Position numbers and translations under genes: made by a program. 33,072 bases of DNA from an uncultured Bacteroidaceae bacterium. Its GTDB lineage: Bacteria; Bacteroidota; Bacteroidia; Bacteroidales; Bacteroidaceae. This document shows, piece by piece, positions 1-13,935 of the stretch. The DNA is taken from the NCBI GenBank assembly GCA_905233285.1, contig CAJODY010000010.1, positions 1-33,072 on the forward strand, in the 5' to 3' direction. The notes beneath the pieces are model-generated. The model was not told where the DNA came from. It was given only the letters and a program-made list of their open reading frames with translations, and searched no databases. The stretch's first letter is position 1, and the number at the start of each line of letters is the position of its first letter.

Positions 1-240
1 ACCGTCCTTACTGCCCGAGGTGACCGTGGATTCTTCGCGTCCGCAGACTCCGCGCATGAAGAACTCCTTGATAGCCACCAGCACGCTGCTGTCGAGTGAA
101 CCCAGTTCGCCCTGCATCTGAACTCGTGCCAGATAGGTGATGCCGAAGCTACCTTGACCGAGCACTTTCTGGATAGTATAATTATACGATTTTCCTTTCA
201 GCGTGATGCCCGAAGGTAGCGCATATTCTATTCGTTCCAT
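1..240 (-). CDS. Ser/Thr protein kinase, N-terminal 80 residues (partial, runs off the window)
   Basis: This is the first 80 codons of a eukaryotic-like Ser/Thr kinase; the rest lies beyond base 1. Visible are the glycine-rich loop (VLGQGSFGITY, residues 27-37) and the beta-3 lysine motif VAIKEFFM (about 55-62), both almost identical to the other kinases in this window. The insert between these motifs (about 17 residues, rich in G, S and L) places it in the long-loop subgroup with the kinases at 2942 and 10838. The ATG at 240-238 is the only sensible start. It follows the exported FGE-domain gene in the same direction with a 39-bp gap holding a weak promoter-like box. The C-terminal output or sensor domain cannot be seen. 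Kinase identity is secure; substrate is unknown. Confidence 0.9.
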   Translation of the reverse strand, partial: MERIEYALPSGITLKGKSYNYTIQKVLGQGSFGITYLARVQMQGELGSLDSSVLVAIKEFFMRGVCGREESTVTSGSKDG

Positions 241-279: not shown

Positions 280-1239
280 CTAGAAAAAAGATAACCTTCC
301 ATCTGGCCCTTGCGGGGGCTTGCTCCGCTTTGCCCCGCCGTGCCGATGGTTGTCAGCACTTCGCCTTGAGCCTAGAACCTTTTCTGAGAGTTGTAAACTC
401 AAAGAGCCAGGCGGGTCGTCGTCGCGGAGTGTCGGGATGCTGCCGCCACGGCACGACGAGCGGGCGATTCCCCTGTAGTTGCTGAGCCAACCGTCCCCAC
501 GAACCACGCGGTAAGAGCCAGTGGATGCGCCCGTGGGATTGGTCTGAGAAATACTGCTATAGTCGTCTTTCCAATCCTGACACCACTCCCACACATTGCC
601 GCTCATGTCATATATACCAAGTTCGTTAGGCTTCTTAGTAGCCACTTCGTGTGTCTTTTCGCCGCTGTTATCCCAATACCACGCGACATCGTCAATATTG
701 TTGCTGCCACTATACTTATAGCCTAGGCTCTTGTTTCCACCTCGTGCTGCATATTCCCATTCAGCCTCGGTAGACAAGCGGAATTCTTCTCCTGTCATTT
801 CGTAGAGTTTATTTATAAACTTCTGACAGTCATCCCAACTTACTTGCTCTACTGGCAGTTTGTCGCCTTTAAAGTGTGAAGGGTTGTTACCCATGACTGC
901 TTTCCACAGAGCTTGAGTTACTTCGGTCTGACCAATATAATAACTGCTCAAGGTCACGCTGTGGACTGGTTTTTCATCATCAACAGCATCATCTTCTTGC
1001 TCTATTGTAGCACCCATTTGGAATGTACCGCCCTCTACATATATCATAGTAAGCGAAACTCCATTTACATAAAATACTTTATTATATGTTTTTTGTTGAA
1101 TGTTTGCAGTTTTTCCTCTACGTTGAGGTTTCTGATTATTTTGTGGAGTTGGGCGACGTATATGTTCTCCTGCTTTTTGTGCATGCATGAGAATTGGAAA
1201 TATGCAAAGCAATAATATGCTTAATCTGTATCTTTTCAT
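280..1239 (-). CDS. Exported FGE-sulfatase/SUMF1-fold protein with variable C-terminus, apparently frameshifted near its end
   Basis: A 319-codon ORF with a signal peptide (residues 1-20, cut near MHA|QK) followed by a formylglycine-generating-enzyme-type domain from about residue 55: EGGTFQMGA, TEVTQALW, LPVEQVSW, FRLSTEAEWEYAARGG, YDMSGNVWEW. There is no kinase domain, so the product is an exported FGE domain alone. Residues 243-275 align with the presumed variable zone of the protein at 2942. Both sister proteins then end in LG(L/F)RLAL. Here that ending (RLAL-stop) occurs in another frame, with its TGA at 401-399. Alignment suggests 8 bases are missing after base 415, so the last 44 residues would be aberrant read-through; the intact protein would be about 282 residues. 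The catalytic cysteine of true FGE (GFRCA in the human enzyme) is absent, so a binding role is more likely. Confidence 0.8.
   Translation of the reverse strand: MKRYRLSILLLCIFPILMHAQKAGEHIRRPTPQNNQKPQRRGKTANIQQKTYNKVFYVNGVSLTMIYVEGGTFQMGATIEQEDDAVDDEKPVHSVTLSSYYIGQTEVTQALWKAVMGNNPSHFKGDKLPVEQVSWDDCQKFINKLYEMTGEEFRLSTEAEWEYAARGGNKSLGYKYSGSNNIDDVAWYWDNSGEKTHEVATKKPNELGIYDMSGNVWEWCQDWKDDYSSISQTNPTGASTGSYRVVRGDGWLSNYRGIARSSCRGGSIPTLRDDDPPGSLSLQLSEKVLGSRRSADNHRHGGAKRSKPPQGPDGRLSFF
312..338 (-). other. GC-rich hairpin 3' of the variable zone
   Basis: An inverted repeat with arms GCGGGGGC (312-319) and GCCCCGC (332-338), one C bulged, encloses a 12-base loop. It lies about 75 bases 3' of the variable zone of the exported FGE gene, inside the apparent read-through tail. 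The minus strand has no immediate T-tract (the nearest is about 20 bases further on), so a plain terminator is not convincing. GC-rich structures 3' of variable repeats help target recognition in some DGRs, but that link is only an inference here. Confidence 0.4.
415..513 (-). repeat. Candidate DGR variable region, copy 1 (exported FGE protein)
   Basis: Codons 243-275 of the exported FGE gene. Fixed framework codons (CGT, TGG, CGC TCG TCG, CCG, CGC) alternate with codons ending in C whose first two bases differ from the copy at 2972-3067. The aligned triplets AGC/GAC, ATC/GAC, CTC/GAC, GAC/GGC, GAC/TAC and GAC/TCC all fit AAC in a hypothetical template. The stretch is strikingly GC-rich compared with the rest of the gene. 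The template repeat itself was not found in this window. Confidence 0.6.
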
Positions 1240-1273
1240 AGTGTCTGTTATATTTTATGTTGTTATGATTGAA

Positions 1274-2917
1274 CTAAAGAGCAAGACGGAAGCCAAGGTT
1301 GTCATAGCGGGATGATGGAGAATAGTAGTACCGCCCTGATATTCGACAGCCACTTGCTTCATAGCTCCAACTACCCCCACGTCGCACACGCAGAAGTCCA
1401 TCTATGGCTCCTGTAGGATTGGTCTGCGGCTCCGGTGTGTACATATCTTTCCAATCGGATACCCATTCAAAAACATTACCACTCATATCATACATCCCCA
1501 GTTCGTTAGGTTGTTTTGTCGCCACTTCGTGTGTCTTACCTTCACTATTGTCTTTATACCATGCAATTTTTCCTAAATCATTGCTACCACTATATTTATA
1601 TCCTTTGCTTTTCTTACCTCCACGTGCTGCATACTCCCATTCAGCCTCAGTAGGAAGACGGAAATCTTGTCCTGTCATTAAGTTGAGTTTACTTATAAAC
1701 TCCTGACAATCGTTCCAACTGACATTCTCAACTGGGAGTTTGTCACCTTTATATTTAGATGGATTGTTTCCCATAACTTCTTTCCAAAGTTCTTGAGTTA
1801 CCTCAGTAGTAGCTATATAATAGTCGTTTAAGGTCACGTTGTGTATTGGTTTTTCATCATCATAAGCATTTTCTCCTTGCTCAGTTGTAGCTCCCATTTG
1901 GAAAGTTCCACCTTCGATGGCAACCATTTTTATAATAACATTACCAACAGGTATTTCCCAAACTCCATTCTTTACCATATGATGTTCTATGGCTGAATCT
2001 ATAATTGTTTCATCGGTATCAGGTTGGTTCAGGGAAATGTCTTTAACCACATCTTTCCTTTTCTCATCAAGCAGACCCATGAATTCTTTAATGGAATGAG
2101 GACGATTGTTTTTATTCGGACTCATAGAGGAATGTATGGCATTCCAAAGCGAATCAGAAATTCCATTCGGACGTTTTATGGGGTCGATAATCAGTTCTGT
2201 AGCTTCTGGTGGAACTTGACCTGTAACAAAGAAGTAAGCTGTGGCTCCCAAACTATATATATCTGTTTCAGGTGAAAACGATTGAACACCACCTTGACGA
2301 TACTGTTCTATAGGTGCATATCCTTTACTTCTCCCAACAGGAGTGGTAGTCGTTGCCTCACCTTCAGAATCATAGTGTTTAGAAACTCCGAAATCTATCA
2401 GGAACAAGTCATTGCCGCGTAGAAGCACATTAGCCGGTTTGATGTCTAAGTGCATAATTCGTTTAGAGTGGAGCGTGCTTAGTGCATCAGCCATCTGAGT
2501 AATATACTTAATGGCAATGCTTTCATTTAATGCACCTTCTTTTTTGATTTTGCTGTCAAGTGAACCTCCTTCGATGAATTGCATCACATAATATGCTGTA
2601 CCATTCTCTTGAAAGATGTCGTGAATTCGAATGATATGAGGAACATCTTCCAATTCGGCAATCATCTGGGCTTCTTTAATGAATTTCTCTTTAAAGCGTA
2701 CTACCAAAGACCGATTCCCTTCAGTCCCAGCTATTGTTACCATCGATGTTTCTCCGTCTCTCTCACAGAAGTCTTTCATAAAAAACTCCTTAATAGCAAC
2801 TTTCCTTCCTAATCCGGTCTGTACACCTTCATAAGTGATTCCAAAGCCCCCTTGACCAAGAACTTTCTCTATTCTATATTTTCCTCCTTGAAGAGTACTG
2901 TTGGGTTGTAATGTCAT
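1274..2917 (-). CDS. Ser/Thr kinase fused to FGE-sulfatase-fold domain, no membrane segment
   Basis: A 547-residue protein. The kinase domain spans about 14-285: glycine loop GQGGFGITYEG (21-31), lysine K43 in VAIKEFFM, catalytic loop HLDIKPANV (156-164, with HLD rather than HRD), DFG at 175-177, a Thr-rich activation segment (ATTTTPVG), and YAPIEQ in place of APE. After a linker, the FGE domain spans about 328-547 (EGGTFQMGA, TEVTQELW, FRLPTEAEWEYAARGG, YDMSGNVFEW) and ends LGFRLAL. No transmembrane helix joins the two domains, unlike the neighbour at 2942, so both parts should be cytoplasmic. It belongs to the short-loop kinase subgroup with the MORN kinase at 12493. The gaps are 24 bp to the gene before it and 34 bp to the one after, so co-transcription is likely. 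It would phosphorylate Ser/Thr in unknown partners. Confidence 0.93.
   Translation of the reverse strand: MTLQPNSTLQGGKYRIEKVLGQGGFGITYEGVQTGLGRKVAIKEFFMKDFCERDGETSMVTIAGTEGNRSLVVRFKEKFIKEAQMIAELEDVPHIIRIHDIFQENGTAYYVMQFIEGGSLDSKIKKEGALNESIAIKYITQMADALSTLHSKRIMHLDIKPANVLLRGNDLFLIDFGVSKHYDSEGEATTTTPVGRSKGYAPIEQYRQGGVQSFSPETDIYSLGATAYFFVTGQVPPEATELIIDPIKRPNGISDSLWNAIHSSMSPNKNNRPHSIKEFMGLLDEKRKDVVKDISLNQPDTDETIIDSAIEHHMVKNGVWEIPVGNVIIKMVAIEGGTFQMGATTEQGENAYDDEKPIHNVTLNDYYIATTEVTQELWKEVMGNNPSKYKGDKLPVENVSWNDCQEFISKLNLMTGQDFRLPTEAEWEYAARGGKKSKGYKYSGSNDLGKIAWYKDNSEGKTHEVATKQPNELGMYDMSGNVFEWVSDWKDMYTPEPQTNPTGAIDGLLRVRRGGSWSYEASGCRISGRYYYSPSSRYDNLGFRLAL
1298..1372 (-). repeat. Possible DGR variable region, diverged copy (cytoplasmic kinase-FGE)
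   Basis: Codons 516-540, just before the terminal LGFRLAL. The protein pattern SW-three variable-A..C R..S. R....P..R... matches the other two copies position by position, and several codons end in C or T (AGC, TAT, TAC, TAC, TAT, TCC, TAT, GAC, AAC). The DNA framework differs (CGA ATA TCA GGG CGG), and the zone is not as GC-rich. It may use another template or be an inactive relative. Confidence 0.35.
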
Positions 2918-2941
2918 TTCGTTTCAAATAAATAATATTTA

Positions 2942-4876
2942 TTATGGGGTTAAGGCTAGGCGCAGCCCCAGGGAGTAGCCGCGGTCCGCCGGGTCGTCGT
3001 AGCCACGGTACGACGAGCGACAGTACCTTGCGCCGTTGCCCCAATAGCCTCCACGGAGCACGCGGTTAGAGCCAGTGGACGCGCCTGTAGGATTAGTCTG
3101 AGAACTACTGCTATAGTCGCCATACCAGTCCTGACACCACTCCCACACATTGCCACTCATGTCGTAAAGGCCAAGTTCGTTGGGCTGTTTGGTTGCCACT
3201 TCGTGTGTCTTTTCGCCGCTATTATCAGCATACCATGCAACTTTATCTAAAGAGTTGCTACCACTATATTTATATCCTTTTCTTTTCTTACCGCCACGTG
3301 CTGCATATTCCCATTCAGCCTCGGTAGGCAGGCGAAAGTTCTCACTTGTCAGCTGATTAAGTTTGGATATAAAGGTCTGGCAGTCGTCCCACTTTACCTG
3401 CTCAACTGGCAGTTTGTCGCCTTTAAAGTGTGAAGGGTTGTTACCCATGACTGCCTTCCACAGAGCTTGAGTTACTTCAGTACTGCATATATAATAATCG
3501 TTTAGAGTTACACTGTGAACAGGCTTTTCGAAATAAGAATCATAATCATCTCCTTGCTCAGTTGTAGCACCCATTTGAAATGTTCCACCTTCCACGGGTT
3601 TCATTTCAAATGTAATTCCCTTAACGTTGAATTTTAAAGAAGTATTTGAAAATACTTTATTTGTCATTTTGTTTTCATCTAGGCTTTTATCCTTTGTCGA
3701 TGAAGACATAATTGCGATAAAAAATGCCATCATGATAATGAGTCCCAAACCGATGATAGCCCAATATGTGTAATTAGAGTTGCTTTCTGTTTTCTTTGTA
3801 TCTTTTTGTTTTGTATTTTGTATGTTATGAGGTTTTTCTTCGTATTTGTTGTGTTCTTCTATAATAGTATCTTCATACGAAGAATCATGTTTTTCTTCTA
3901 CTTCGGGTTTTGTTTCCGCAGATGAAAGTACCTCCACAGATTCCTCTTCTGAATTTTCTTTGTCTGCATTAAACATGTCAAGAAACGCCTTTGCAGTCTG
4001 AATTCTTTTCTTTACGTTTGGATTCATTGCAGCTTTAACAATTGCAATGTTGTTTTCGCTGATATTATGTGAGCGCAGACTTTCACCAATTATATCATCA
4101 TCGGAAATCAGTTCGTCGGCAGATGGGGGAGTTTGTCCTGTCAAAAGTTTATAGAATGTGGCACCAAGAGCATATATGTCAAGAGTAGTTCGGAACTGAT
4201 TGGATTGCTTGCTGTTAGCCTGTTCGATAGGTGAATATCCCGGTGTGCCTAGGCCAACACTTGTTGAAGTTTCTGGTTGACCATCTTCACTGTAATGCTT
4301 GCTAAGACCGAAATCAATAAGGAAAATATGTCCGTCTCTATTTCGTCTCATGACATTTCCAGGCTTCAGGTCAAGATGTAACATGTGTTTCTCCTCATGC
4401 ATGTATTGGAGTGCCTCGGCAACATCCTTGATAATCCTTACAGCTTCCTCTTCGCTTATCTTATTATGTTTCAGGTAATCGTTAAGGTTCTCACCTTCTA
4501 CGTAGTCCATCACATAATAATATGTGTTATTTGCACTGATGAAGTCGATAACCTTAACAATATTAGGGTGGCTCATGCCTGCAAGGTTCTCGGCCTCTTT
4601 CCTGAATTTCTGGGCATAGTTGTAGGAAATACTTCCTTCAGACATACTTGTAAGGGAACCAGAGGCATTGCGTTCGTTCACTTCTTTCATGAAGAACTCT
4701 TTGACAGCCTTAGGTGTACTAAGTTCAACAGTCTCTTCTCCGAACTTACCCTTTATTTTTGTGAAAACTTTTACTTTATATGTGACTCCGAAACTACCTT
4801 GTCCCAATACGGATTCTATGCGGTATGTCGTATTGTCACTATGAAGTTCTTGTCCTATGTCCAGTGTTTTTGCCAT
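2942..4876 (-). CDS. Transmembrane Ser/Thr kinase with extracytoplasmic FGE-sulfatase-fold sensor domain
   Basis: A 644-residue protein. The N-terminal kinase spans about 18-303: VLGQGSFGVTY (23-33), a long loop before K59 in AVKEFFM, HLDLKPGNV (167-175), DFG 188-190, GYSPIEQ in place of APE. An acidic, Ser/Glu-rich linker (305-365) leads to one transmembrane helix (371-391, YWAIIGLGLIIMMAFFIAIM). The FGE domain (about 418-644) is then predicted to lie in the periplasm. The architecture suggests a receptor kinase: outside ligand binding by FGE, inside phosphorylation. Residues 604-635 form the variable zone, followed by the fixed end LGLRLALTP. The catalytic Cys of FGE enzymes is absent. It sits 27 bp after the PP2C phosphatase gene and 24 bp before the next kinase, so probably shares their transcript. 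Confidence 0.93.
   Translation of the reverse strand: MAKTLDIGQELHSDNTTYRIESVLGQGSFGVTYKVKVFTKIKGKFGEETVELSTPKAVKEFFMKEVNERNASGSLTSMSEGSISYNYAQKFRKEAENLAGMSHPNIVKVIDFISANNTYYYVMDYVEGENLNDYLKHNKISEEEAVRIIKDVAEALQYMHEEKHMLHLDLKPGNVMRRNRDGHIFLIDFGLSKHYSEDGQPETSTSVGLGTPGYSPIEQANSKQSNQFRTTLDIYALGATFYKLLTGQTPPSADELISDDDIIGESLRSHNISENNIAIVKAAMNPNVKKRIQTAKAFLDMFNADKENSEEESVEVLSSAETKPEVEEKHDSSYEDTIIEEHNKYEEKPHNIQNTKQKDTKKTESNSNYTYWAIIGLGLIIMMAFFIAIMSSSTKDKSLDENKMTNKVFSNTSLKFNVKGITFEMKPVEGGTFQMGATTEQGDDYDSYFEKPVHSVTLNDYYICSTEVTQALWKAVMGNNPSHFKGDKLPVEQVKWDDCQTFISKLNQLTSENFRLPTEAEWEYAARGGKKRKGYKYSGSNSLDKVAWYADNSGEKTHEVATKQPNELGLYDMSGNVWEWCQDWYGDYSSSSQTNPTGASTGSNRVLRGGYWGNGARYCRSSYRGYDDPADRGYSLGLRLALTP
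2972..3067 (-). repeat. Candidate DGR variable region, copy 2 (receptor kinase FGE domain)
   Basis: Codons 604-635. Thirteen or so of these codons are NNC (AAC, GGC, TAC, GAC, CGC, TCC) set among fixed codons shared with the copy at 415-513 (TGG, AGG, CGC TCG TCG, CGT, CCG, CGC, CTG). Synonymous third positions barely vary while first and second positions do, the reverse of ordinary divergence. The first variable codon is AAC here and TAC in copy 1. The zone is very GC-rich inside an AT-rich gene. Confidence 0.6.
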
Positions 4877-4903: not shown

Positions 4904-6274
4904 TCATTTATTAGAAACTGTGTCAGTTTTCTCCACCTTTTCAACATTATCAGTTTTGTTAGTTTGGGAAGCTTTTTCATCCTTTTCATTTTTTTCATCT
5001 TTATCTTTCACCTCTGCTTCATCTGCTTTCTTTTTTATAGGGGTGTTGTCTGGCTTATTTACTTCCTCTGTAGTATTTTGAATTTTATCTGCCTGTTGAG
5101 AATTATTATTGAATAAACTATTAATAATTGGAGTTTCTTTTTTGATTGTATCAGTTGCTTTATCATTGCTTTCTATGTTCATAGAATCACTTTGATTGTC
5201 AACATAGACACTGTCGGTTGTAAGTTCTCGCAGCACATAAGTCCCTCCATATCTTATTCCGAAAAATACAATTGTAAGAACAATAAGGATACCGAAGAGA
5301 TATTTTATAACACGTTTGGCTAAAGAATGGCTATTATGTGTTTCTTTGCTCGTTGTAGTTTCTGACTCAGAAGATGATTGTGGTTTTAATGTTGAATTAT
5401 CTTCCTCGACTTCAGCCATGATAGGAGTAGGCTTCTTGGTCGCAGTATTCTTATCACTTTTTTCTGATGCCTTTATATCAAAGACATCAAGGATGTGAAT
5501 AATTATAGCTGAATGGTTGTCGGAATTCTGGCTGGTGGCTTGAGTTAGAATCTTGACTTTATTATCGTCATTACCTGTTGCTTCGGAAAAATTAAATAGT
5601 ATATTTTCATCTTCCATTTGTTCAAGCATCCCGTCGGAACACATATAGAAATAATCACCTGGACGAATATCATCAGTATGATATATGTCAGCTTTGGGTC
5701 TCCGACCCATATTGGGCTGCATGGCGCGAGTGATAACATTCTTTTGTTTGGAAAATTTAGCCTCTTCTGGAGTTAATTCTCCAACTTTTATAAGGTCGTT
5801 GACTAAAGAATGGTCGCTTGTCTTGAATAGGATTTTTGAATCATCGCGTCCCTTGCCTGGTCGGATGTGATAGACGCGACTATCACCCATATGAGCGATG
5901 GTACATCCATCTTTGTGGAACTTGAGAAAAGTCATGGTTGTCCCCATCTTTTTCTCACTACTTACATTTGTATCGACTGCATCCAAGGCATTAAAGGCGT
6001 CATCTATTGCTTGTTGCAATATGTCGTCGCTAAAGAATCCTTCGGCATCGGATGTGTTTTTAAGCACAGATGTGCTCATTACTTTACATACAGTAGCACT
6101 CGCAACCTCACCAGCATCGTGACCACCCATCCCATCACAAAGAATGAAAAGACGATCTGTATCACGTTGGTGCCCGTGAGCGGGATAAATACTGTCTTCT
6201 TGGTGTGGATTACCGTCAGCATCGACACGTTGTCCATATTCCAAGATTGTTTTAACTTTCAGTTTATATTTCAT
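4904..6274 (-). CDS. PP2C-family protein Ser/Thr phosphatase with membrane segment
   Basis: A 456-residue protein. The PP2C domain occupies about 1-265, with the metal-binding motifs CDGMGGH (46-52), MGDSR (129-133), CSDGM (212-216) and DNHSA (252-256), plus the HQED motif near residue 24-27. These are the acidic residues that hold the two Mn/Mg ions. A Ser/Thr/Glu-rich linker follows, then a single transmembrane helix (about 322-342) and a roughly 110-residue Lys/Glu/Asp-rich low-complexity tail predicted to be outside. It should dephosphorylate targets of the neighbouring kinases, and perhaps the kinases themselves. It lies 21 bp after the FHA gene and 27 bp before the receptor kinase, giving a compact FHA-phosphatase-kinase set. 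The charged extracytoplasmic tail is unusual; its role is unknown. Confidence 0.93.
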   Translation of the reverse strand: MKYKLKVKTILEYGQRVDADGNPHQEDSIYPAHGHQRDTDRLFILCDGMGGHDAGEVASATVCKVMSTSVLKNTSDAEGFFSDDILQQAIDDAFNALDAVDTNVSSEKKMGTTMTFLKFHKDGCTIAHMGDSRVYHIRPGKGRDDSKILFKTSDHSLVNDLIKVGELTPEEAKFSKQKNVITRAMQPNMGRRPKADIYHTDDIRPGDYFYMCSDGMLEQMEDENILFNFSEATGNDDNKVKILTQATSQNSDNHSAIIIHILDVFDIKASEKSDKNTATKKPTPIMAEVEEDNSTLKPQSSSESETTTSKETHNSHSLAKRVIKYLFGILIVLTIVFFGIRYGGTYVLRELTTDSVYVDNQSDSMNIESNDKATDTIKKETPIINSLFNNNSQQADKIQNTTEEVNKPDNTPIKKKADEAEVKDKDEKNEKDEKASQTNKTDNVEKVEKTDTVSNK

Positions 6275-6295: not shown

Positions 6296-6889
6296 TTAGA
6301 TTTCGGTTCCTTCTTCATCCGGAATCTCAAATTTAACCTTTATGTCGGGTAAATTGATAACGTCGCCATGATTAAGTACAATGCAGTCGCCATATTCCAA
6401 AGGTACATTGTTAACAAATGTCTCATTTACATTCTGTTTGTAAAGTGATGCATAATGAACAATCCCTTTTCCTTGAACTTTCTTCAGTTCTATTATTAAG
6501 TGCTCACGGCTCATTCGTTTACTTCCTTCAGTTGGTATCTGAATGTCAGCTTTTGACTGCTGCGCTTGCCTTCCAATAATGTTTTTACCAATTCTTAATT
6601 GGAATGACCTTCCTGAAGAAATAACTTTTAATTGTCCAAGAGTAAAATTGATTTCCTGATAATATTGGGAGTTCTTCTCTGAACGGTTATTATAGCTGTT
6701 ATCTGTTTCGCTATCCGGGTATTGAGTGGCTTCTTCGTTCTGTTTCTCAAATATAACTTTAAAATCACTGAATCTAGATTTCTGTTTACATATCGGACAG
6801 GTCACATTCTTAGACTCTATACCGGCTTGACTCTTAACAGAAAGGACAGCACCACAATACGGGCATTTTATTTTTAATAAATCATCCAT
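6296..6889 (-). CDS. Zinc-ribbon plus FHA-domain protein (phosphothreonine reader)
   Basis: A 197-residue soluble protein. The N-terminus has a CPYC...CPIC zinc ribbon (residues 9-34). A polar linker leads to an FHA domain (about 80-190) with the conserved GR (IIGRQ, near 106), SREH (about 127-130) and an NVNETFVNN turn that stands in for the usual N-G. FHA domains bind phosphothreonine peptides, so this is a likely adaptor for the products of the local kinases. A longer ORF begins at a TTG at 6913 inside the caspase gene. I chose the ATG at 6889 because it sits two bases after the caspase stop codon and keeps both domains whole. No signal peptide or membrane helix is seen. Confidence 0.88.
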   Translation of the reverse strand: MDDLLKIKCPYCGAVLSVKSQAGIESKNVTCPICKQKSRFSDFKVIFEKQNEEATQYPDSETDNSYNNRSEKNSQYYQEINFTLGQLKVISSGRSFQLRIGKNIIGRQAQQSKADIQIPTEGSKRMSREHLIIELKKVQGKGIVHYASLYKQNVNETFVNNVPLEYGDCIVLNHGDVINLPDIKVKFEIPDEEGTEI

Positions 6890-6891
6890 GT

Positions 6892-7641
6892 TTATTTCTT
6901 TTTTTGAGTCCAAATCATAACAGGCATGTTGTCATCGAACTTACCCCACATAACAGGATGTTGCCTATCACGTGTCTCTTTGATAACATCCGAATGTACA
7001 TACATGTATAATTCCTTTGCTGTAATAATTCGATTCTTATTTGCGTCAGCTCCTCCTCTTAGTCCTTTTTGAAGACTTGAGGTAAAGTATCCGTTGGACA
7101 TACTTCTATTTTCTAATGATGTTTCGTCGCTTCTCGAAGACAGCAAAAGCATTACGTTTGCTTTCTTTGCTGCTTGAACTGCAGAGCCGGAAGAGCGTTT
7201 GTTGGTTCGAATATCTCCCGAAAAACATGCATCAGCAAAAATCATTTTGTTTTGACTTTTGCTGGATGCCATAGCTTTTCGAACATCACCATAGGTCAAA
7301 GCATAATCATAGGAGCAAAAACCGCCTGCATAGCCATGTCCGCTAAAATAGAATACTATTATATCATCTTCTTTTGCTTTAGAGAATTTTGACTTCATAG
7401 CAGCAAGTATGTTATCCTTGGTCGCATTATCATCAAGCAGTAAAGTACAACTTACATCAGTATTCTTTGAATATAGCCATGCTATAGTTTGTGCATCTTT
7501 AGCAGGGAGACTCAAATCGCTTTCAGTTCCTGGATAATCAGAGATTCCTGCAGAAACCAGATAAGTTTTGGCTTCACCAACTAATGTACATGCCAATATG
7601 AGAATAGTGACACATATTTTAATAAATACATTATGCTTCAT
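6892..7641 (-). CDS. Exported caspase-family (peptidase C14-like) protein
   Basis: A 249-residue protein with an N-terminal hydrophobic export segment (about 5-24, IKICVTILILACTLVGEA) and a p20-type caspase-fold domain. The catalytic His is H102 in FYFSGHGYAGG and the catalytic Cys is C139 in IFADACFSGD. Near the C-terminus, DANKNRIITAKEL resembles the short acidic loop often seen in bacterial caspase homologues. An upstream ATG at 7686 would add 15 residues deep in the preceding gene. The ATG at 7641 overlaps that gene by only 11 bases and gives a normal signal sequence. C18 could be a weak lipobox cysteine. The protein is probably a periplasmic or membrane-attached protease, perhaps acting on the neighbouring acidic membrane proteins; that partner choice is inference. 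No large regulatory domain is attached. Confidence 0.88.
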   Translation of the reverse strand: MKHNVFIKICVTILILACTLVGEAKTYLVSAGISDYPGTESDLSLPAKDAQTIAWLYSKNTDVSCTLLLDDNATKDNILAAMKSKFSKAKEDDIIVFYFSGHGYAGGFCSYDYALTYGDVRKAMASSKSQNKMIFADACFSGDIRTNKRSSGSAVQAAKKANVMLLLSSRSDETSLENRSMSNGYFTSSLQKGLRGGADANKNRIITAKELYMYVHSDVIKETRDRQHPVMWGKFDDNMPVMIWTQKKK

Positions 7642-8674
7642 ATATGTCAGCATCATTAGTGTAGTCAATATCAAGATTGTTGTCATTTTGAGTGAAGATA
7701 CCTTCTTCCATAATTAGAGAGCTGTCGGTTTCGTCAATGATAGGATTTGCATCTGATATATCATCTGTTCCAGCAGTAGCAATCTCTTCAGTTACAGCGT
7801 CTCCAGTGTCATCTCCTACATCTATTACTGCTACTTCTTGACCATCATCAATGGTCACGCCTTCTATATCGCTTCCAATATCATCTGTCTGTGCCACACC
7901 TAATATTTCAACATCTTGTTCATCGGTCGATTGTGCGATTTCTTCAACATAATCAATCTGATTTTCATCAACGTCCCCTACAATGTCATTTGGGATTTCA
8001 AGATTTTCATTATCCGTGTTTTGAGTAATCTCTTCTTCATGGACCTCTTCTTGCGTGGTTTGATTATTATCGTCGTTGTTCTCTATTGCGGAATTCTCTG
8101 CATTTTCTTCCCCTGATTCCTGGTTAGTGTTATTTGTTACATTCTCGCTGTAATCAGAAATCTGAGAGTCGCCATCGTTTAAATTGTACTGACTTAAATA
8201 ATCGTCTCTTTGCTCATCTGACATGTTCCCCCATTCTTCTTCTGTATAGGTGGAGTAGAGGTTCCCATACCATTCAAAAGCACCTCCAGAACCCATTTCA
8301 GCTCTTGCAGCTGCAAATGCTTCGTTGAAAGATATGTCATCGGAAGTAGATGTCGAAATATTTTCTTCTACGTCATTCCCGTTTGTGTCACCTTCGTTAT
8401 TGGTTTCTGTGTCATTTACATTGTCATTATTCTCAGGTGTTGCACTGCTAAATAACATTGATGCTCCTAAACCAATTGCAAATGAACCAGCCGTTCCAAT
8501 TGCAACTCGTTTCCATTTTGGTTTCTTTTTGTCTGATGTTTTTTTCTCGGAAATGTCGTTTTTATTCTCATCTTTTTGATTTTTGCATGTGTCTAAATGA
8601 GTGGTTTCTGTATCAATATTAGAATTTGTTTCATTCTTTTGACCAGAATCATATATAGTTTTTTCTTCGTCCAT
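7631..8674 (-). CDS. Acidic single-pass membrane protein of unknown function
   Basis: A 347-residue protein that I do not recognise. Residues 1-55 are hydrophilic and Lys-rich just before one small-residue transmembrane segment (about 56-76, VAIGTAGSFAIGLGASMLF, glycine-zipper-like). About 270 residues extremely rich in Asp, Glu, Asn and Thr follow, with no repeats as regular as in the upstream gene. Positive-inside charge predicts the acidic part to be extracytoplasmic. Residues about 115-165 (FNEAFAAARAEMG, GNMSDEQRDDY) look more structured. The final residues, DYTNDADIYEA, closely resemble the end of the upstream protein (DYTNDANVDDYIA), and both have a Gly/Ala-rich hydrophobic segment, so they seem distant paralogues. 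It is co-directional with, and overlaps by 11 bases, the caspase gene. Confidence 0.85.
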   Translation of the reverse strand: MDEEKTIYDSGQKNETNSNIDTETTHLDTCKNQKDENKNDISEKKTSDKKKPKWKRVAIGTAGSFAIGLGASMLFSSATPENNDNVNDTETNNEGDTNGNDVEENISTSTSDDISFNEAFAAARAEMGSGGAFEWYGNLYSTYTEEEWGNMSDEQRDDYLSQYNLNDGDSQISDYSENVTNNTNQESGEENAENSAIENNDDNNQTTQEEVHEEEITQNTDNENLEIPNDIVGDVDENQIDYVEEIAQSTDEQDVEILGVAQTDDIGSDIEGVTIDDGQEVAVIDVGDDTGDAVTEEIATAGTDDISDANPIIDETDSSLIMEEGIFTQNDNNLDIDYTNDADIYEA

Positions 8675-8706: not shown

Positions 8707-9507
8707 TTATGCTATATAATCATCCACGTTAGCATCATTTGTGTAATCGGGGTCATTTGCCAGATCATAGTTTGTGGTTAATCCTTCTATGGCAGTTGTG
8801 TCATCAAGTATTTGCGGTACATCAATTTCCGTTGTTATTAATTCTGGCTCATCGTTTATTACCGGATCTGTGATGATACCTGGATCAATCTCGATATAAT
8901 CTTCTATCGGATTTTCAGAATCTGATATAACTGCAACGTCTTCAGATTCGATCTCTGCTTCTTCTTGTGCTGTAGCAGGCTCTTCCGGTTCTATCTCCGG
9001 TTCTTCCTGTGCTGTAGCAGGCTCTTCCGGTTCTATCTCCGGTTCTTCCTGTGCTGTAGCAGGCTCTTCCGGTTCTATTTCTGCTTCTTCCTGTGCTGTA
9101 GCAGGATTTTCCGGTTCTATCTCTGGTTCTTCCTGTGCTGTAGCAGGATTTTCCGGTTCTATCTCTGGTTCTTCCTGTGCTGTAGCAGGATTTTCCGGCT
9201 CGGTCTCTGCTTCTTCCTGTGCTGTAGCAGGCTCTTCCGGTGTAGAAACGTGATTACTATTTGACTGGTACGTATTTGCATTTTGTTTCATATTATGCTC
9301 TCTTTCCTCCATTGGATGTGCATTTAATACCTCTAATTCGTCTGTATTAGACTCTTCATCAACGTTGTCATTGTTGTTTACGGTATTTTCTGCTTGAGCA
9401 TCTGCTGCTACAAAAGCACCTGCCATCGCACCTACGGCTGCACCTGCAACAGAACTGGCACCTGTCATTACCTTGGATTTTGTTTCTGAATCAAATTTCT
9501 TTTTCAT
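8707..9507 (-). CDS. Acidic repeat protein with Gly/Ala hydrophobic segment; first gene of a probable operon
   Basis: A 266-residue protein that I do not recognise. After a basic start (MKKKFDSETKSK) comes a Gly/Ala-rich hydrophobic stretch (about 14-36, SVAGAAVGAMAGAFVAADA), either a membrane anchor or a signal sequence with an AQA-like cut site. Residues 93-190 are seven uninterrupted 14-residue repeats (PATAQEEPEIEPEN type), followed by another acidic region and the tail DYTNDANVDDYIA shared with the downstream protein. The 131-bp gap upstream contains a promoter-like sequence, so this probably begins the transcript that carries the caspase, FHA, phosphatase and FGE kinase genes. The repeats suggest a stalk or spacer of adjustable length. 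Confidence 0.85.
   Translation of the reverse strand: MKKKFDSETKSKVMTGASSVAGAAVGAMAGAFVAADAQAENTVNNNDNVDEESNTDELEVLNAHPMEEREHNMKQNANTYQSNSNHVSTPEEPATAQEEAETEPENPATAQEEPEIEPENPATAQEEPEIEPENPATAQEEAEIEPEEPATAQEEPEIEPEEPATAQEEPEIEPEEPATAQEEAEIESEDVAVISDSENPIEDYIEIDPGIITDPVINDEPELITTEIDVPQILDDTTAIEGLTTNYDLANDPDYTNDANVDDYIA
8938..9231 (-). repeat. Seven tandem 42-bp repeats inside the acidic protein gene
   Basis: Exactly 294 bases, seven in-frame units of 42 bp encoding 14 residues each. The units vary only at a few codons (PEIE versus AEIE or AETE; PEN versus PEE; the last ends SED), and neighbouring units are nearly identical in DNA. This points to recent expansion by slippage or unequal recombination. 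Copy number is likely to vary between strains. Confidence 0.95.
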
Positions 9508-9638: not shown

Positions 9639-10421
9639 TTATTTTTCGTTAAACTTACAGCCACAATAACTGCATTTTTTATTTGTACGTAACACATCAT
9701 ATGGTATATTCCCCATAAAATGATGACATTCAGGATTGGGACAAGTATATTTTTTCCTAAAATCTGCATCTAAATCTTTTAATCTTACTAAAAGAGAGTT
9801 TGATGTATTTAAACCTCTAACAAAAAATATTATAGCAATTAGAACTGAAAATCCTGTAAGAACAAAGCGAAGGTCGCCCATACCTTCAATAAACATGAAA
9901 AGTATTCCGCACGAAGAAAAAATACCTCCTAATTTTTGAATATTGTTTCTCTTTTGTTCTGATAATTGTTCTTCAGTTCTCTTTGTGTCGTATTCTTCCC
10001 ATACTATTTTTAATGACTTTATTGAATATTCCTGAGCGGGTGGGGGAGTGGATTCTCCTATAGCTTTGGATATTGTATCGATAATTGAGCCGACATTGAT
10101 GGAATATTTGTCTTTCCCAAGTTCTATGAATGAATCATTTGTAACTGTTTTGGATATGATTTCCACACCATTTACATATGTCACATTCTGTGGTTTCAGG
10201 TTTGTTACTTTTATTGCGCCTGTATTGTCCACATCAATTTTACAATGTCCGATATTTTCGGCAGGCTTACATCTACTAACCGAATTGGGCACGCTGTTCA
10301 TTTCTCCTATTGTTGTCATTTTGGGCTGCCCATTTATCTTAACTGAAATAAACAGACGCCCATTACCAGGTTCTTTACCTACAAGAATCGTTTTCCCTTT
10401 TAATTTGTCAATGTTATTCAT
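9639..10421 (-). CDS. FHA-like membrane protein with C-terminal zinc ribbon
   Basis: A 260-residue protein. The N-terminal ~115 residues look like a divergent FHA domain: ILVGKEPGNGRL, NSVSR (47-50, the S-R of FHA), and QNVTYVNGVEI (79-88, matching the T-x-x-N-G turn). Residues about 166-181 and 186-203 form two hydrophobic helices, likely a membrane hairpin that leaves both ends in the cytoplasm. The C-terminus carries CPNPEC (227-232) and CSYC (250-253), a CX4C-X17-CX2C zinc ribbon. It would recruit Thr-phosphorylated partners to the membrane. It is the last gene of the train starting at 13935, 24 bp after the LytTR gene. The FHA call rests on short motifs and should be treated as probable. 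Confidence 0.75.
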   Translation of the reverse strand: MNNIDKLKGKTILVGKEPGNGRLFISVKINGQPKMTTIGEMNSVPNSVSRCKPAENIGHCKIDVDNTGAIKVTNLKPQNVTYVNGVEIISKTVTNDSFIELGKDKYSINVGSIIDTISKAIGESTPPPAQEYSIKSLKIVWEEYDTKRTEEQLSEQKRNNIQKLGGIFSSCGILFMFIEGMGDLRFVLTGFSVLIAIIFFVRGLNTSNSLLVRLKDLDADFRKKYTCPNPECHHFMGNIPYDVLRTNKKCSYCGCKFNEK

Positions 10422-10837: not shown

Positions 10838-12415
10838 CTATTCTTTTTTCAAAACAGGTCTAATAAAATTTTGACCTGTAATAAGATTGTACATTATATC
10901 ATAATTATTTGAGTTAAAATAGATATAGTAAAAACTTTTGTACTTCGATGCTTTAGATGCTGACCAATAACAGGCATTTTTATATTTTGTAGAAGGAAGA
11001 AAAATACTATTCCCATTTGATCCAATTACTCTATACCCAACAATATCATTTATTTCAACCCAATGCCATTCACATTTATCAATTAGTTCTTTCCATTGTT
11101 TTCTTATAGGAAGCATACAATTACCGTTAGATAGAATATTTGCGATGTCTAATTCAGAACCTGCTATGCTATCAGGAATAGTGTTCCATTTAATGTTGGC
11201 ATCAACTGGAATAGCAGAATACCTATCACCAAGTTCTAATATATTATTTGCTCCAACATTTTTGCTGGCCCACTTAACGCTTAAACCTAAATCAACATAA
11301 TCATCATCAGAAATCAATTCGTATCTAGTTGGTTCCGCAATAACTTCATCTTCCGAATCAGCATTTTCTTTTTTTTCATTCTCAACACTTATATCGTGTA
11401 GAGATACATCCATATTATGTTCAACATATTCGGTCGCTTCTTCATCAATTGTGTCTCCGATAACGTCTGTATTACTATCTGTATTACTATCATTATTGAT
11501 ATTACAGGTATCTAATGATTTTATAAATTCAGAAACAGAAGGGGTGCGACGTTTTGCACTTGGCATCATAGCTTCGACTATTACTTTTTGAATATGTTTA
11601 GACACATTGTGCTTACACATAATATCCTCTAACAAATCTTCGTCTTCCAAAATATCCGAAGCTGGTGGAGGGGTCTCACTCGTCAACATTTTGAAAAGTG
11701 TTCCTCCTAACGCATAAACATCAATAGTAGGTCTAAAAGAACTTTGTGCCGATGCTCTCTTCCCTTGTTCCAATGGTGCGTATCCTTCAGTTCCAAGTCC
11801 TATTGTCGTTGATGTGTCAGGTTGTCCTTCGTCACTATAATGCTTGCTCAGGCCAAAGTCAATTAAGAAGATGTGACCATCACATTTTCTCCTCATGATA
11901 TTACCTGGCTTTAAGTCCAAATGAAGCATTTTATGTTCTTCATGCATATATCGTAAAGCTTCTGCAACATTTTTTACGATAGAAATTGCTTCGGATTCGT
12001 TGAGAGGTTTACCTTGCATGTAATGTGTTATGTCATCTCCATCAATGTAATCCATTACATAGTAAAAAGTGTTATTTGCCTCAATAAAATCCATTACGCG
12101 TACAATATTTGGATGTCGCATAACAGCAAGACGTTCTGCTTCTTTCCGAAATTTTTTTGCGTAATTGTATGCTAAGCTTCCCTCTGAAAGTCCGGAAATA
12201 GAGCCGTCGACATCCCTTTGGTTTATATCACGCATAAAGAACTCCTTTATTGCTATAGGATGGGGGAGTTCCACCTTTATCTCGCCAAATGCTCCTTTCG
12301 CCTTGGTATAGCCCTTTGCCTTATATGTTACTCCAAAGGAACCTTGTCCTAATACGCTTTCAATAACATATTGGATATTATTCCCATTTAGTTCTGATCC
12401 TTGTTTTAACGTCAT
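10838..12415 (-). CDS. Ser/Thr kinase with C-terminal VDLGLSVKWA-type domain
   Basis: A 525-residue protein. The kinase domain spans about 17-303: VLGQGSFGVTY (21-31), a long loop to K57 in AIKEFFM, HLDLKPGNI (165-173), DFG 186-188, GYAPLEQ in place of APE. It is very similar to the kinase at 2942. An acidic linker (305-365) has no transmembrane helix. Residues about 372-525 carry the YVDLGLSVKWASKNVGA opening, LPIRKQWKELI, and ACYWSAS with a final FIRPVL. This domain family (often annotated Fibrobacter major-paralogue-like) is common in Bacteroidota surface or sensory proteins; its ligand is unknown. Its 3' codons are AT-rich and lack the NNC pattern of the FGE genes. It lies 5 bp before the LytTR gene. 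Confidence 0.9.
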   Translation of the reverse strand: MTLKQGSELNGNNIQYVIESVLGQGSFGVTYKAKGYTKAKGAFGEIKVELPHPIAIKEFFMRDINQRDVDGSISGLSEGSLAYNYAKKFRKEAERLAVMRHPNIVRVMDFIEANNTFYYVMDYIDGDDITHYMQGKPLNESEAISIVKNVAEALRYMHEEHKMLHLDLKPGNIMRRKCDGHIFLIDFGLSKHYSDEGQPDTSTTIGLGTEGYAPLEQGKRASAQSSFRPTIDVYALGGTLFKMLTSETPPPASDILEDEDLLEDIMCKHNVSKHIQKVIVEAMMPSAKRRTPSVSEFIKSLDTCNINNDSNTDSNTDVIGDTIDEEATEYVEHNMDVSLHDISVENEKKENADSEDEVIAEPTRYELISDDDYVDLGLSVKWASKNVGANNILELGDRYSAIPVDANIKWNTIPDSIAGSELDIANILSNGNCMLPIRKQWKELIDKCEWHWVEINDIVGYRVIGSNGNSIFLPSTKYKNACYWSASKASKYKSFYYIYFNSNNYDIMYNLITGQNFIRPVLKKE

Positions 12416-12492: not shown

Positions 12493-13935
12493 TTATGGAA
12501 TAATTTTCCCATTTTTAGTATACCATTTTCCTTTATCTGGCTGACCATTTTTGAATGTACCATAGAAGTAACTGCCATCAGACTTGATGGTATATCGTCC
12601 CATCTTGAATTCGTTTTTATAAAATTTACCTCTGAATTCGTCACCATTATCATACATAAATATCACACTATCTCCCTCCATTTCACCATGAACAAATGAA
12701 CCACTATATTTCCGACCATCATTGAATATTAAACTACCATTGCCATCTGGCATGCCTTTCTCATCAATGTAACCCCTATAGATTCCTGTTCCTAAAGAAG
12801 ATTTGTAATACATTGAATCCGTCCATATTCCCATTGAATCAGCTGATTCTACTAATTGAGAGGACTTATGATTACACCCATTGTATAGCAATATAGAAAT
12901 CAATATTATTGATGGGAATATAATCCATAATAGATATTTTATTTCGAATTTATACTTTTTCTTTTCCTTTTTCTGTTCCTGTTCTTTTTCCTTTACCTTT
13001 ACCTTTTCCTTTTCCTTTTCCTTTACTGCGGATATTACGATTATCTCAGTCTCAGGCTCTTTGTCATCAAACGTAATAGTTTCAATAAAATCGGAAATGG
13101 AATGATATCTATCTTTCTTCTTTGGCTCCATTGCCTTACAAATGGCATTGATGATATTCTCATTCACGTCCTTACTTCTTAAAATATCAACGGGTACCCC
13201 GTCTTCATATATATCTGAAGCGCTAGGAGGATTAATACCTGTTAATAGTTTAAAGTATGTTGCTCCGAGAGCATAAATGTCAGCTTCAGGAGAAAACTCA
13301 CTAACACCACCTTGCTTGTATTGCTCCATCGGAGCATACCCCTCACTTATGCCTACTGGTGTGTTACTTGTTTGTATTCCTCCTGTGTCATATTGTTTGG
13401 ATAGTCCGAAATCTATAAGAACAACATTGTCGTTTTCATCCAGAAGCACGTTACTAGGTTTTATATCTAAATGATTTATACGCTTTTTGTGAATATAATC
13501 AACTGCTTCTGCTAATTGTAAAATGTATCGTGTAGCTTTTTCCTCCGAAAGAGCTTTATTATTTCGAACTTTATCGGACAGAGAGCCTCCTTCCATATAC
13601 TCCATAACATAATATGCCGTCCCGTTTTCTTCAAAAACGTCCATTATGCGTACAATGTGTTGATGCTTTAATTTGGCAATGTTACGAGCTTCTTTTAAGA
13701 ATTTTTCTTGATAACGCTTCACAATTTCCTGACTGCCTGTTGAAGGGATGCTTACGTGGCTGGTTGACTCATCACGTTCGCAGTATTCTTTCATAAAGAA
13801 CTCTTTGATAGCTACTTTACGTCCAAGCATTGTTTGTTCGGCTAGATATGTAATGCCGAAACCTCCCTGTCCAAGGACATCTTCTATTTTGTATTTATTT
13901 TCTTGTAGGACACGACCTGTAGTTAATTCAGTCAT
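12493..13935 (-). CDS. Transmembrane Ser/Thr kinase with extracytoplasmic MORN repeats
   Basis: A 480-residue protein. The kinase domain spans about 16-287: VLGQGGFGITY (20-30), K44 in VAIKEFFMK, HLDIKPSNV (155-163), DFG 175-177, GYAPMEQ in place of APE. A striking Lys/Glu run (KEKEKEKVKVKEKE, about 305-327) precedes one transmembrane helix (334-351). About three to four MORN-type repeats follow (384-470; YRGYIDEKGMPDGNG, YSGSFVHGEMEGD, FRGKFYKNEFKMG, YGTFKNGQPDKG). MORN repeats usually contact lipids or act as spacers; here they would face the periplasm. It is the first gene of the minus-strand signalling train, with 77 bp to the next kinase. Kinase and MORN calls are secure; the signal sensed is not known. 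Confidence 0.92.
   Translation of the reverse strand: MTELTTGRVLQENKYKIEDVLGQGGFGITYLAEQTMLGRKVAIKEFFMKEYCERDESTSHVSIPSTGSQEIVKRYQEKFLKEARNIAKLKHQHIVRIMDVFEENGTAYYVMEYMEGGSLSDKVRNNKALSEEKATRYILQLAEAVDYIHKKRINHLDIKPSNVLLDENDNVVLIDFGLSKQYDTGGIQTSNTPVGISEGYAPMEQYKQGGVSEFSPEADIYALGATYFKLLTGINPPSASDIYEDGVPVDILRSKDVNENIINAICKAMEPKKKDRYHSISDFIETITFDDKEPETEIIVISAVKEKEKEKVKVKEKEQEQKKEKKKYKFEIKYLLWIIFPSIILISILLYNGCNHKSSQLVESADSMGIWTDSMYYKSSLGTGIYRGYIDEKGMPDGNGSLIFNDGRKYSGSFVHGEMEGDSVIFMYDNGDEFRGKFYKNEFKMGRYTIKSDGSYFYGTFKNGQPDKGKWYTKNGKIIP

Follow-up and report, generated by a model that had tools for sequence, protein, structure and literature searches.

Diversity-generating retroelements (DGRs) with targets of the formylglycine-generating enzyme (FGE) fold are well known. 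In cyanobacteria, the functional domain most often met in DGR-internal targets is a protein kinase domain, predicted to be of the Ser/Thr type, and caspase-like domains occur as well (Vallota-Eastman et al. 2020, PMC7517822). Diversified FGE or C-type lectin (CLec) heads beside peptidase effectors have been proposed as antigen (immune) sensors (Dore et al. 2024, PMC10907252; Kaur et al. 2020, PMC7159879). Bacteroides DGRs act on tip pilins (Macadangdang et al., cited in PMC12632263), and other elements have a broken motor while the repeats persist, or target membrane proteins of the FGE-sulfatase family (Schillinger 2012, PMC3521204). Here we analyse the first 33,072 bases of contig C10 (CAJODY010000010.1) from an uncultured Bacteroidaceae bacterium, hereafter the window. 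We are confident that the C-terminal FGE ends of two of its genes, A and C, and of a further copy, E, on contig C25 of the same genome, are variable regions (VRs) of an FGE-class DGR.

The best match of the FGE domain by sequence in the PDB is Treponema denticola TvpA (2y3c, E = 3.1e-46), behind which the true formylglycine-generating enzymes follow near 1e-21; Foldseek also ranks TvpA first (E = 5.8e-18), using a structure model of modest quality. TvpA has the same fold and a C-terminal VR, and the two align across the VR as far as the last residue. Unlike TvpA, the FGE heads described here also occur as fusions with Ser/Thr kinases, of which that of gene C has a transmembrane-like segment, and no cognate reverse transcriptase (RT) was found in the assembly. 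The cyanobacterial targets differ in that the present locus is from Bacteroidales, its caspase is a separate gene with its own hydrophobic N-terminus beside FHA and PP2C genes, and the RT has an HRDC neighbour. The proposed conflict systems are built on STAND NTPases or MoxR-vWA ternary modules and occur mainly in multicellular bacteria (PMC10907252, PMC7159879), whereas the window holds a kinase, phosphatase, FHA and caspase set. The tip-pilin DGRs are likewise from gut Bacteroidales, but their targets are pilin tips and not FGE-kinase sensors (PMC12632263). Finally, the elements of PMC3521204 retain a recognisable RT and template, neither of which is in this assembly.

The genome of the window (G000) is assembled as 2.55 Mb in 110 contigs and is 89.9% complete. 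G012, G007 and G014 below are other genomes, the first two of the same genus. The FGE genes of the window and their ends are as follows.

280-1239, minus strand: gene A, FGE-domain protein of 319 aa (Pfam FGE-sulfatase, E = 1.6e-43)
399-519, minus strand: VR of gene A, with NNC codons, an extra codon in the AAC run and a frame-shifting 8-bp deletion near the end
1274-2917, minus strand: gene B, Ser/Thr kinase-FGE fusion of 547 aa (Pkinase 6.6e-39, FGE 6e-48)
1274-1399, minus strand: VR-like C-terminal end of gene B, old and drifted if a VR
2942-4876, minus strand: gene C, receptor-type Ser/Thr kinase-FGE protein of 644 aa (Pkinase 9.8e-40, FGE 3.2e-45)
2951-3073, minus strand: VR of gene C, with 20/32 template adenines and 12/91 other bases changed relative to the G012 template (p = 2.3e-7)

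Gene A begins with a signal-like segment (by eye), and its C-terminus is out of frame past the VR. A hydropathy scan places a transmembrane-like segment at residues 369-387 of gene C, separating the kinase from the FGE head; the same scan found no transmembrane segment in gene B. G000 has nine FGE matches in all, six of them outside the window on contigs C25, C7 and C31. Contig C25 (25,041 bases) ends with its FGE copies, a double-FGE protein and copy E (about G000:C25:22221-22352). Copy E is split over two frames near its start, the N-terminal part lying at L016:8807-9058 and the FGE part at L016:8224-8832 (together L016:8224-9058, C25).

Codon-position footprint in A, C and E

The first-pass annotation had claimed that the 3′ ends of genes A and C share fixed codons and differ at codons ending in C by changes at positions 1 and 2 only. 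Both stretches are present on the minus strand with the codon pairs that had been listed, and the changes do fall mostly at positions 1 and 2; third positions differ too, however, at 6/34 codons between C and A and at 4/41 between C and E. The cleanest partner for gene C proved to be copy E, outside the window.

Each VR was compared with the remainder of the same FGE domain, A being cut ahead of its frameshift. Between C and E the ratio of differences at positions 1 and 2 to those at position 3 is 23:4 in the VR and 35:63 upstream (p = 5.6e-6), with 12, 11 and 4 differences at the three positions over the 41 codons of the VR and 18, 17 and 63 over the 157 codons upstream. The corresponding ratios are 30:6 and 31:55 for C and A (p = 2.6e-6), and 34:5 and 30:62 for E and A (p = 7.7e-9). 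Among A, C and E, third positions alone differ at 4-6 of 34-41 codons in the VR and at 55-63 of 150-157 upstream (p = 1.6e-4, 0.043 and 0.0031), the first of these values being for C and E (4/41 versus 63/157). Third positions that are alike in the VR while those upstream have diverged point to rewriting of A, C and E from one common template. As read from its codons, the VR is homogenised yet scrambled at positions 1 and 2, and ordinary conversion or selection would not give both.

On this reading, the end of each target gene was overwritten with a copy of a template that bears AAC at the variable codons, the copy being made by transcription and then by reverse transcription with an adenine-misreading RT. 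Template copying with adenine misreading leads paralogues to share their non-adenine bases while positions 1 and 2 of the AAC sites are scrambled. The VRs also stand where those of DGR targets are expected, at the 3′ end of genes with a C-type-lectin/FGE fold.

Template and reverse transcriptase in relatives

A template was predicted from the codons of the window, with AAC at the variable sites, before any was known, and was searched for in 45 genomes of the genus. It matched six of the 45 at E<=0.001. The best match (G012:C42:28950-29069, 93%) lies in no target gene; it sits at the 3′ side of a gene for an RT that has a YMDD motif. The prediction and the G012 template are identical at 111/120 positions. 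Of the 15 codons predicted as AAC, G012 has AAC at 13, AAT at one and ACC at one. An AAC-bearing template beside a DGR RT, the check that had been named beforehand, was thus found in a congener, though not in the window's own genome. The G012 cassette has the order two FGE genes, HRDC-domain gene, RT, template, and past the template kinase and PP2C genes lie on the opposite strand, with caspase and FHA genes nearby. The first of its FGE genes (L032:9299-10278) is split over two frames, much as copy E is.

Like gene C, copy E differs from the G012 template chiefly at adenines (22/32 adenines and 12/91 other bases, p = 8.7e-9), and the two copies differ from each other at 18/32 sites where that template has A and at 9/91 elsewhere (p = 3.6e-7). 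Both C and E read NNC at 14/14 codons where the template reads AAC or AAT. With gene A (22/32 adenine and 27/91 other sites, the out-of-frame tail counted), these are the ends whose differences from the congener's template concentrate at adenines, as expected of DGR targets. In C and in E alike, 8/12 of the non-adenine changes are at third positions. Since each copy has eight third-position non-adenine differences from the G012 template, yet only four separate the two, C and E appear to have been written from a template of their own lineage; we infer that retrohoming occurred here once the lineage had diverged from G012. In the congener G007, the kinase-FGE fusion G007c differs from the G012 template at 14/32 adenines and 4/91 other bases, and two G014 genes differ at 15/32 and 20/91, and at 17/32 and 20/91, respectively.

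The order FGE-HRDC-RT, with the template beside the RT, recurs in loci L032, L061-L064, L066 and L067 and also in L093, L116 and L124; by genome, G221, G259, G201, G230, G308 and G305 have it besides G012, and the locus of G277 is cut by a contig end. L093, L116 and L124 are three of 79 loci, mostly Bacteroidales, among the matches listed for gene C. The 10 RT-linked loci hold 12 VRs. In 11 of them, 10-18 adenines of their own template are changed and at most one other base; the remaining VR, G012a, is older (18/32 adenines, 15/93 others). Eight genome groups were examined for VR pairs; five gave one VR or none, and the pairs in the other three (G136, G163 and G201, the last with an RT) all differ in the expected direction. 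The A-rich repeat finder picks adenine-biased pairs by construction and was not used as evidence. The adenine-biased differences of C and E, the template and RT of G012, the 11/12 RT-linked VRs and the TvpA match together bear out the DGR footprint that had been proposed for the FGE domains.

The junction behind the VR reads AGTT and that behind the template AGCT in 6/8 RT-linked loci (by eye), L064 and L093 being the two that do not. This one-base difference is a candidate mark telling target from template; in DGRs, junctions that differ in this way are named IMH and IMH*. By eye, AGTT is also found in A, B and E of G000. No conserved hairpin was seen behind the VR: one of 25 folded flanks, that of the L093 template, had z below -2, the flank of gene A having been placed too far downstream. 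Gene A is not alone in its extra codon: the L093 VR, too, has a codon inserted in frame close to the AAC run.

The missing motor and competing explanations

Several observations weigh against the assignment to an FGE-class DGR. Within the G000 assembly, blastn with three queries found no FGE template, and no matching RT was found: the only clear one is prophage-like and 29% identical to the FGE-class RT, and the second RT match has E = 0.22. Nor does G000 have a convincing HRDC accessory gene, the sole match being 39% over 80 residues within a 730-aa frame; we take this frame to be a RecQ-like helicase, and the idea that it is an HRDC remnant of the cassette was dropped. A same-genome template, a cognate RT and an HRDC accessory gene, the parts of a complete element, are therefore all wanting in this assembly and present in relatives. 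Some RT match at E<=1e-8 occurs in 14/45 genomes of the genus, with 21 RT places listed; leaving aside the G012 cassette, contig C1 of G000 and one place for which there was no locus, the other 18 (L153-L170) have no FGE template or FGE gene within flanks of about 1.5 kb. These other RTs were rejected as the cognate enzyme, their matches to the G012 template reaching at most 21 bases with a best E of 0.006, and no FGE or HRDC match being found.

The targets themselves supply further points of this kind. Seven FGE ends of G000 were compared with the G012 template, the C31 match being left out, and the footprint is clear in three (C, E and A) and weak in B (p = 0.011). Gene B ends in the same motif as A and C, but has drifted at third positions, differing from C at 26/41 codons. 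Relative to the G012 template it has 19/32 template-A and 31/91 other differences, 26/31 of the latter at third positions. With such drift, the end of gene B was not accepted as recently written; supposing that it is a VR at all, the writing took place long ago. The two ends of the C25 double-FGE protein (26/32 and 51/91; 21/32 and 46/88) and the C7 gene (20/32 adenine and 51/91 other sites) likewise show mainly third-position drift and no recent footprint. In G012 itself the footprint is weaker in the pair G012a-b (22:11 versus 48:63, p = 0.028). Gene A is frameshifted: compared with copy E it has one extra codon in the variable run and the 8-bp deletion, which leave an out-of-frame tail of about 44 residues, and it may be a frozen or a misassembled target. 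Gene C is without the AGTT junction of A, B and E. The structure model is weak in the VR, with pLDDT of 33-42 over residues 191-220, and mapping of the variable residues onto its surface was dropped for that reason; the model served for the fold match only. Finally, no kinase-FGE fusion turned up beside an RT, neither at the 13 fusion loci among the 79 listed nor in the RT-bearing loci; what connects the fusions with the DGR is the VRs of gene C and of G007c.

It had been stated in advance that the absence of both an RT and a template from the genome would refute a DGR. In this incomplete assembly a matching RT and an FGE template are indeed both absent, but the absence is not decisive, because contigs break at this very place: C10 starts inside the next kinase-like gene, and other copies lie at the end of C25. 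One explanation is that a DGR acted in the lineage and that its RT and template have since been lost, leaving the sensors frozen at their last variant and drifting. We consider this quite possible, while stopping just short of favouring it. It fits the state of G000, in which B has drifted and A is frameshifted, and inactivated RTs beside intact repeats have been described (PMC3521204). It also fits G007 (83% complete), where an HRDC fragment (L033:6985-7233, 54% identity) lies behind an FGE target and where there is neither an RT match at E<=1e-8 nor a template match beyond its three VRs; these VRs are still alike, with only 4/41 third positions differing per pair. The truncated HRDC gene of G007 (L033:6976-7248), with no RT or template behind it, is likely a natural loss of the DGR motor. 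In the family, 30/349 genomes match the template or VR DNA (E<=1e-6) and 8/30 of these have an RT match at E<=1e-70, the RT and template counts presumably coming from the same draw of genomes; in G136 and G163, where no RT matches at E<=1e-30, a single VR pair apiece bears the footprint (p = 0.0018 and 0.0013). On the other side, C10 and C25 both end in the FGE gene family in an assembly that is not complete, repeats and strain variation can break assemblies, and a DNA match alone is no proof that all 30 family genomes carry true VRs. Across the family, then, the RT may frequently have been lost, or assemblies may frequently break there, or both may hold.

An origin without any DGR, by gene conversion among the paralogues together with diversifying selection on a binding surface, is in our view highly improbable. 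The paralogues are indeed close together, and the likeness of C and E reaches just upstream of the VR (4/25 third positions differ). Conversion, however, would not focus the differences on the template-A sites of an independent genome (18/32 versus 9/91, as above), selection would not maintain a cytosine at each of the 14 AAY codons in the two copies, and the predicted template does exist, beside an RT in a congener. A role in trans for the prophage-like DGR of contig C1 (RT at C1:84675-86150) as writer of the FGE VRs is barely conceivable. Its RT is the only clear one in the assembly and is furnished with a real template/VR pair in its own target, but that template is unrelated to the FGE ends, the RT has the low identity to the FGE-class RT noted above, and a search for an FGE template that it could have copied found none.

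The C1 element is a second, unrelated DGR of G000 (L019:13676-18912, equivalent to C1:84675-89911; also L001). Its RT belongs to phrog_1423, its template and VR differ nearly always at template adenines, and its target is a 1133-aa phage-like protein (phrog_14959) among phage-like families. A 2-aminooxy adenylosuccinate synthetase-like gene (phrog_1211) lies nearby. With its unrelated template, the RT of this element was ruled out as writer of the FGE VRs.

Gene neighbourhood and biological meaning

The sensor genes are flanked in the window by the following features.

1-240, minus strand: N-terminus of a further kinase-like gene, with a GQGSFG loop by eye, cut by the contig end at base 1; no Pfam match
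4904-6274, minus strand: PP2C-type phosphatase (PP2C_2 7.2e-10) with one transmembrane-like segment, neighbour of the sensor genes
6296-6913, minus strand: FHA protein (FHA 2.5e-9) with a zinc-ribbon-like N-terminus below the family cut-off
6892-7686, minus strand: caspase-like peptidase (Peptidase_C14, 3.8e-19) carrying HG and DACFSG motifs, hydrophobic near the N-terminus
9639-10421, minus strand: protein related to the caspase neighbour in G012 and in G007; an FHA domain was found in the G012 relative
10838-12415, minus strand: further Ser/Thr kinase of the cluster, without an FGE head
12493-13935, minus strand: further Ser/Thr kinase with a transmembrane-like segment

The FGE genes of the window, of G012 and of G007 keep company with caspase, FHA-type, PP2C and kinase genes, as do those of L076 and of L078, the latter from Bernardetiaceae. 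A kinase-FGE fusion occurs in 13 of the 79 loci listed, a caspase-like match in eight and an RT in three; none combines a fusion with an RT. The company is thinner, and this too counts against tying it closely to the retroelement, in the 11 RT-bearing loci (L032, L061-L067, L093, L116 and L124), where a kinase was found in three (L032, L064 and L124), PP2C in two and a caspase in one; the counts are within the fetched DNA, and several of these loci are cut by contig ends. In PADLOC the kinases match many kinase models and the caspase matches one caspase model. The proteins of gene A, the PP2C and FHA genes and 9639-10421 match no PADLOC model, and a complete system was not identified by this program.

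Two further proteins of the window, at 7631-8674 and 8707-9507, are rich in acidic and polar residues and have one hydrophobic segment each. A protein of like composition (by eye) adjoins the G007 cluster at L033:7318-8448. A Pfam search gave no match for any of the three.

The FGE head of gene C is across the transmembrane-like segment from the kinase, so its rewriting most likely alters what the receptor senses. The FGE heads may be ligand sensors. The kinase may signal via the neighbouring FHA, PP2C and caspase-like proteins. Judging by its N-terminal hydrophobic segment, the caspase-like peptidase is probably exported or anchored, and it may be a signalling output. Most likely, these are receptors that bear rewritten tips and use phosphorylation for signalling. 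A broader picture is speculative, and we think it rather unlikely to hold as a whole: animal-associated Bacteroidales, which are not known to be multicellular, would have an immune-like sensor system in which Ser/Thr receptor kinases are coupled to a caspase and have their extracellular FGE heads rewritten by a retroelement, and lineages would repeatedly lose the RT after writing and keep a frozen repertoire.

The terms kinase, FGE, HRDC and caspase are absent from the main text of Roux 2021 (PMC8144416), and no DGR-diversified kinase in Bacteroidales was found in the literature examined, subscription journals, preprints and supplements being outside the search. Nor did this literature describe a Bacteroidales receptor kinase of the present form with a caspase next to it. 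The cellular targets it does describe are pilin tips (PMC12632263) and membrane proteins of the FGE-sulfatase family, the latter without a stated function and not split by phylum (PMC3521204). In Bacteroidales, the present locus ties DGR hypermutation to transmembrane Ser/Thr receptor kinases that adjoin a caspase-like peptidase. The purpose of cellular DGRs could be tested on it, and congeners with and without the RT would allow the writing and the frozen states to be compared.

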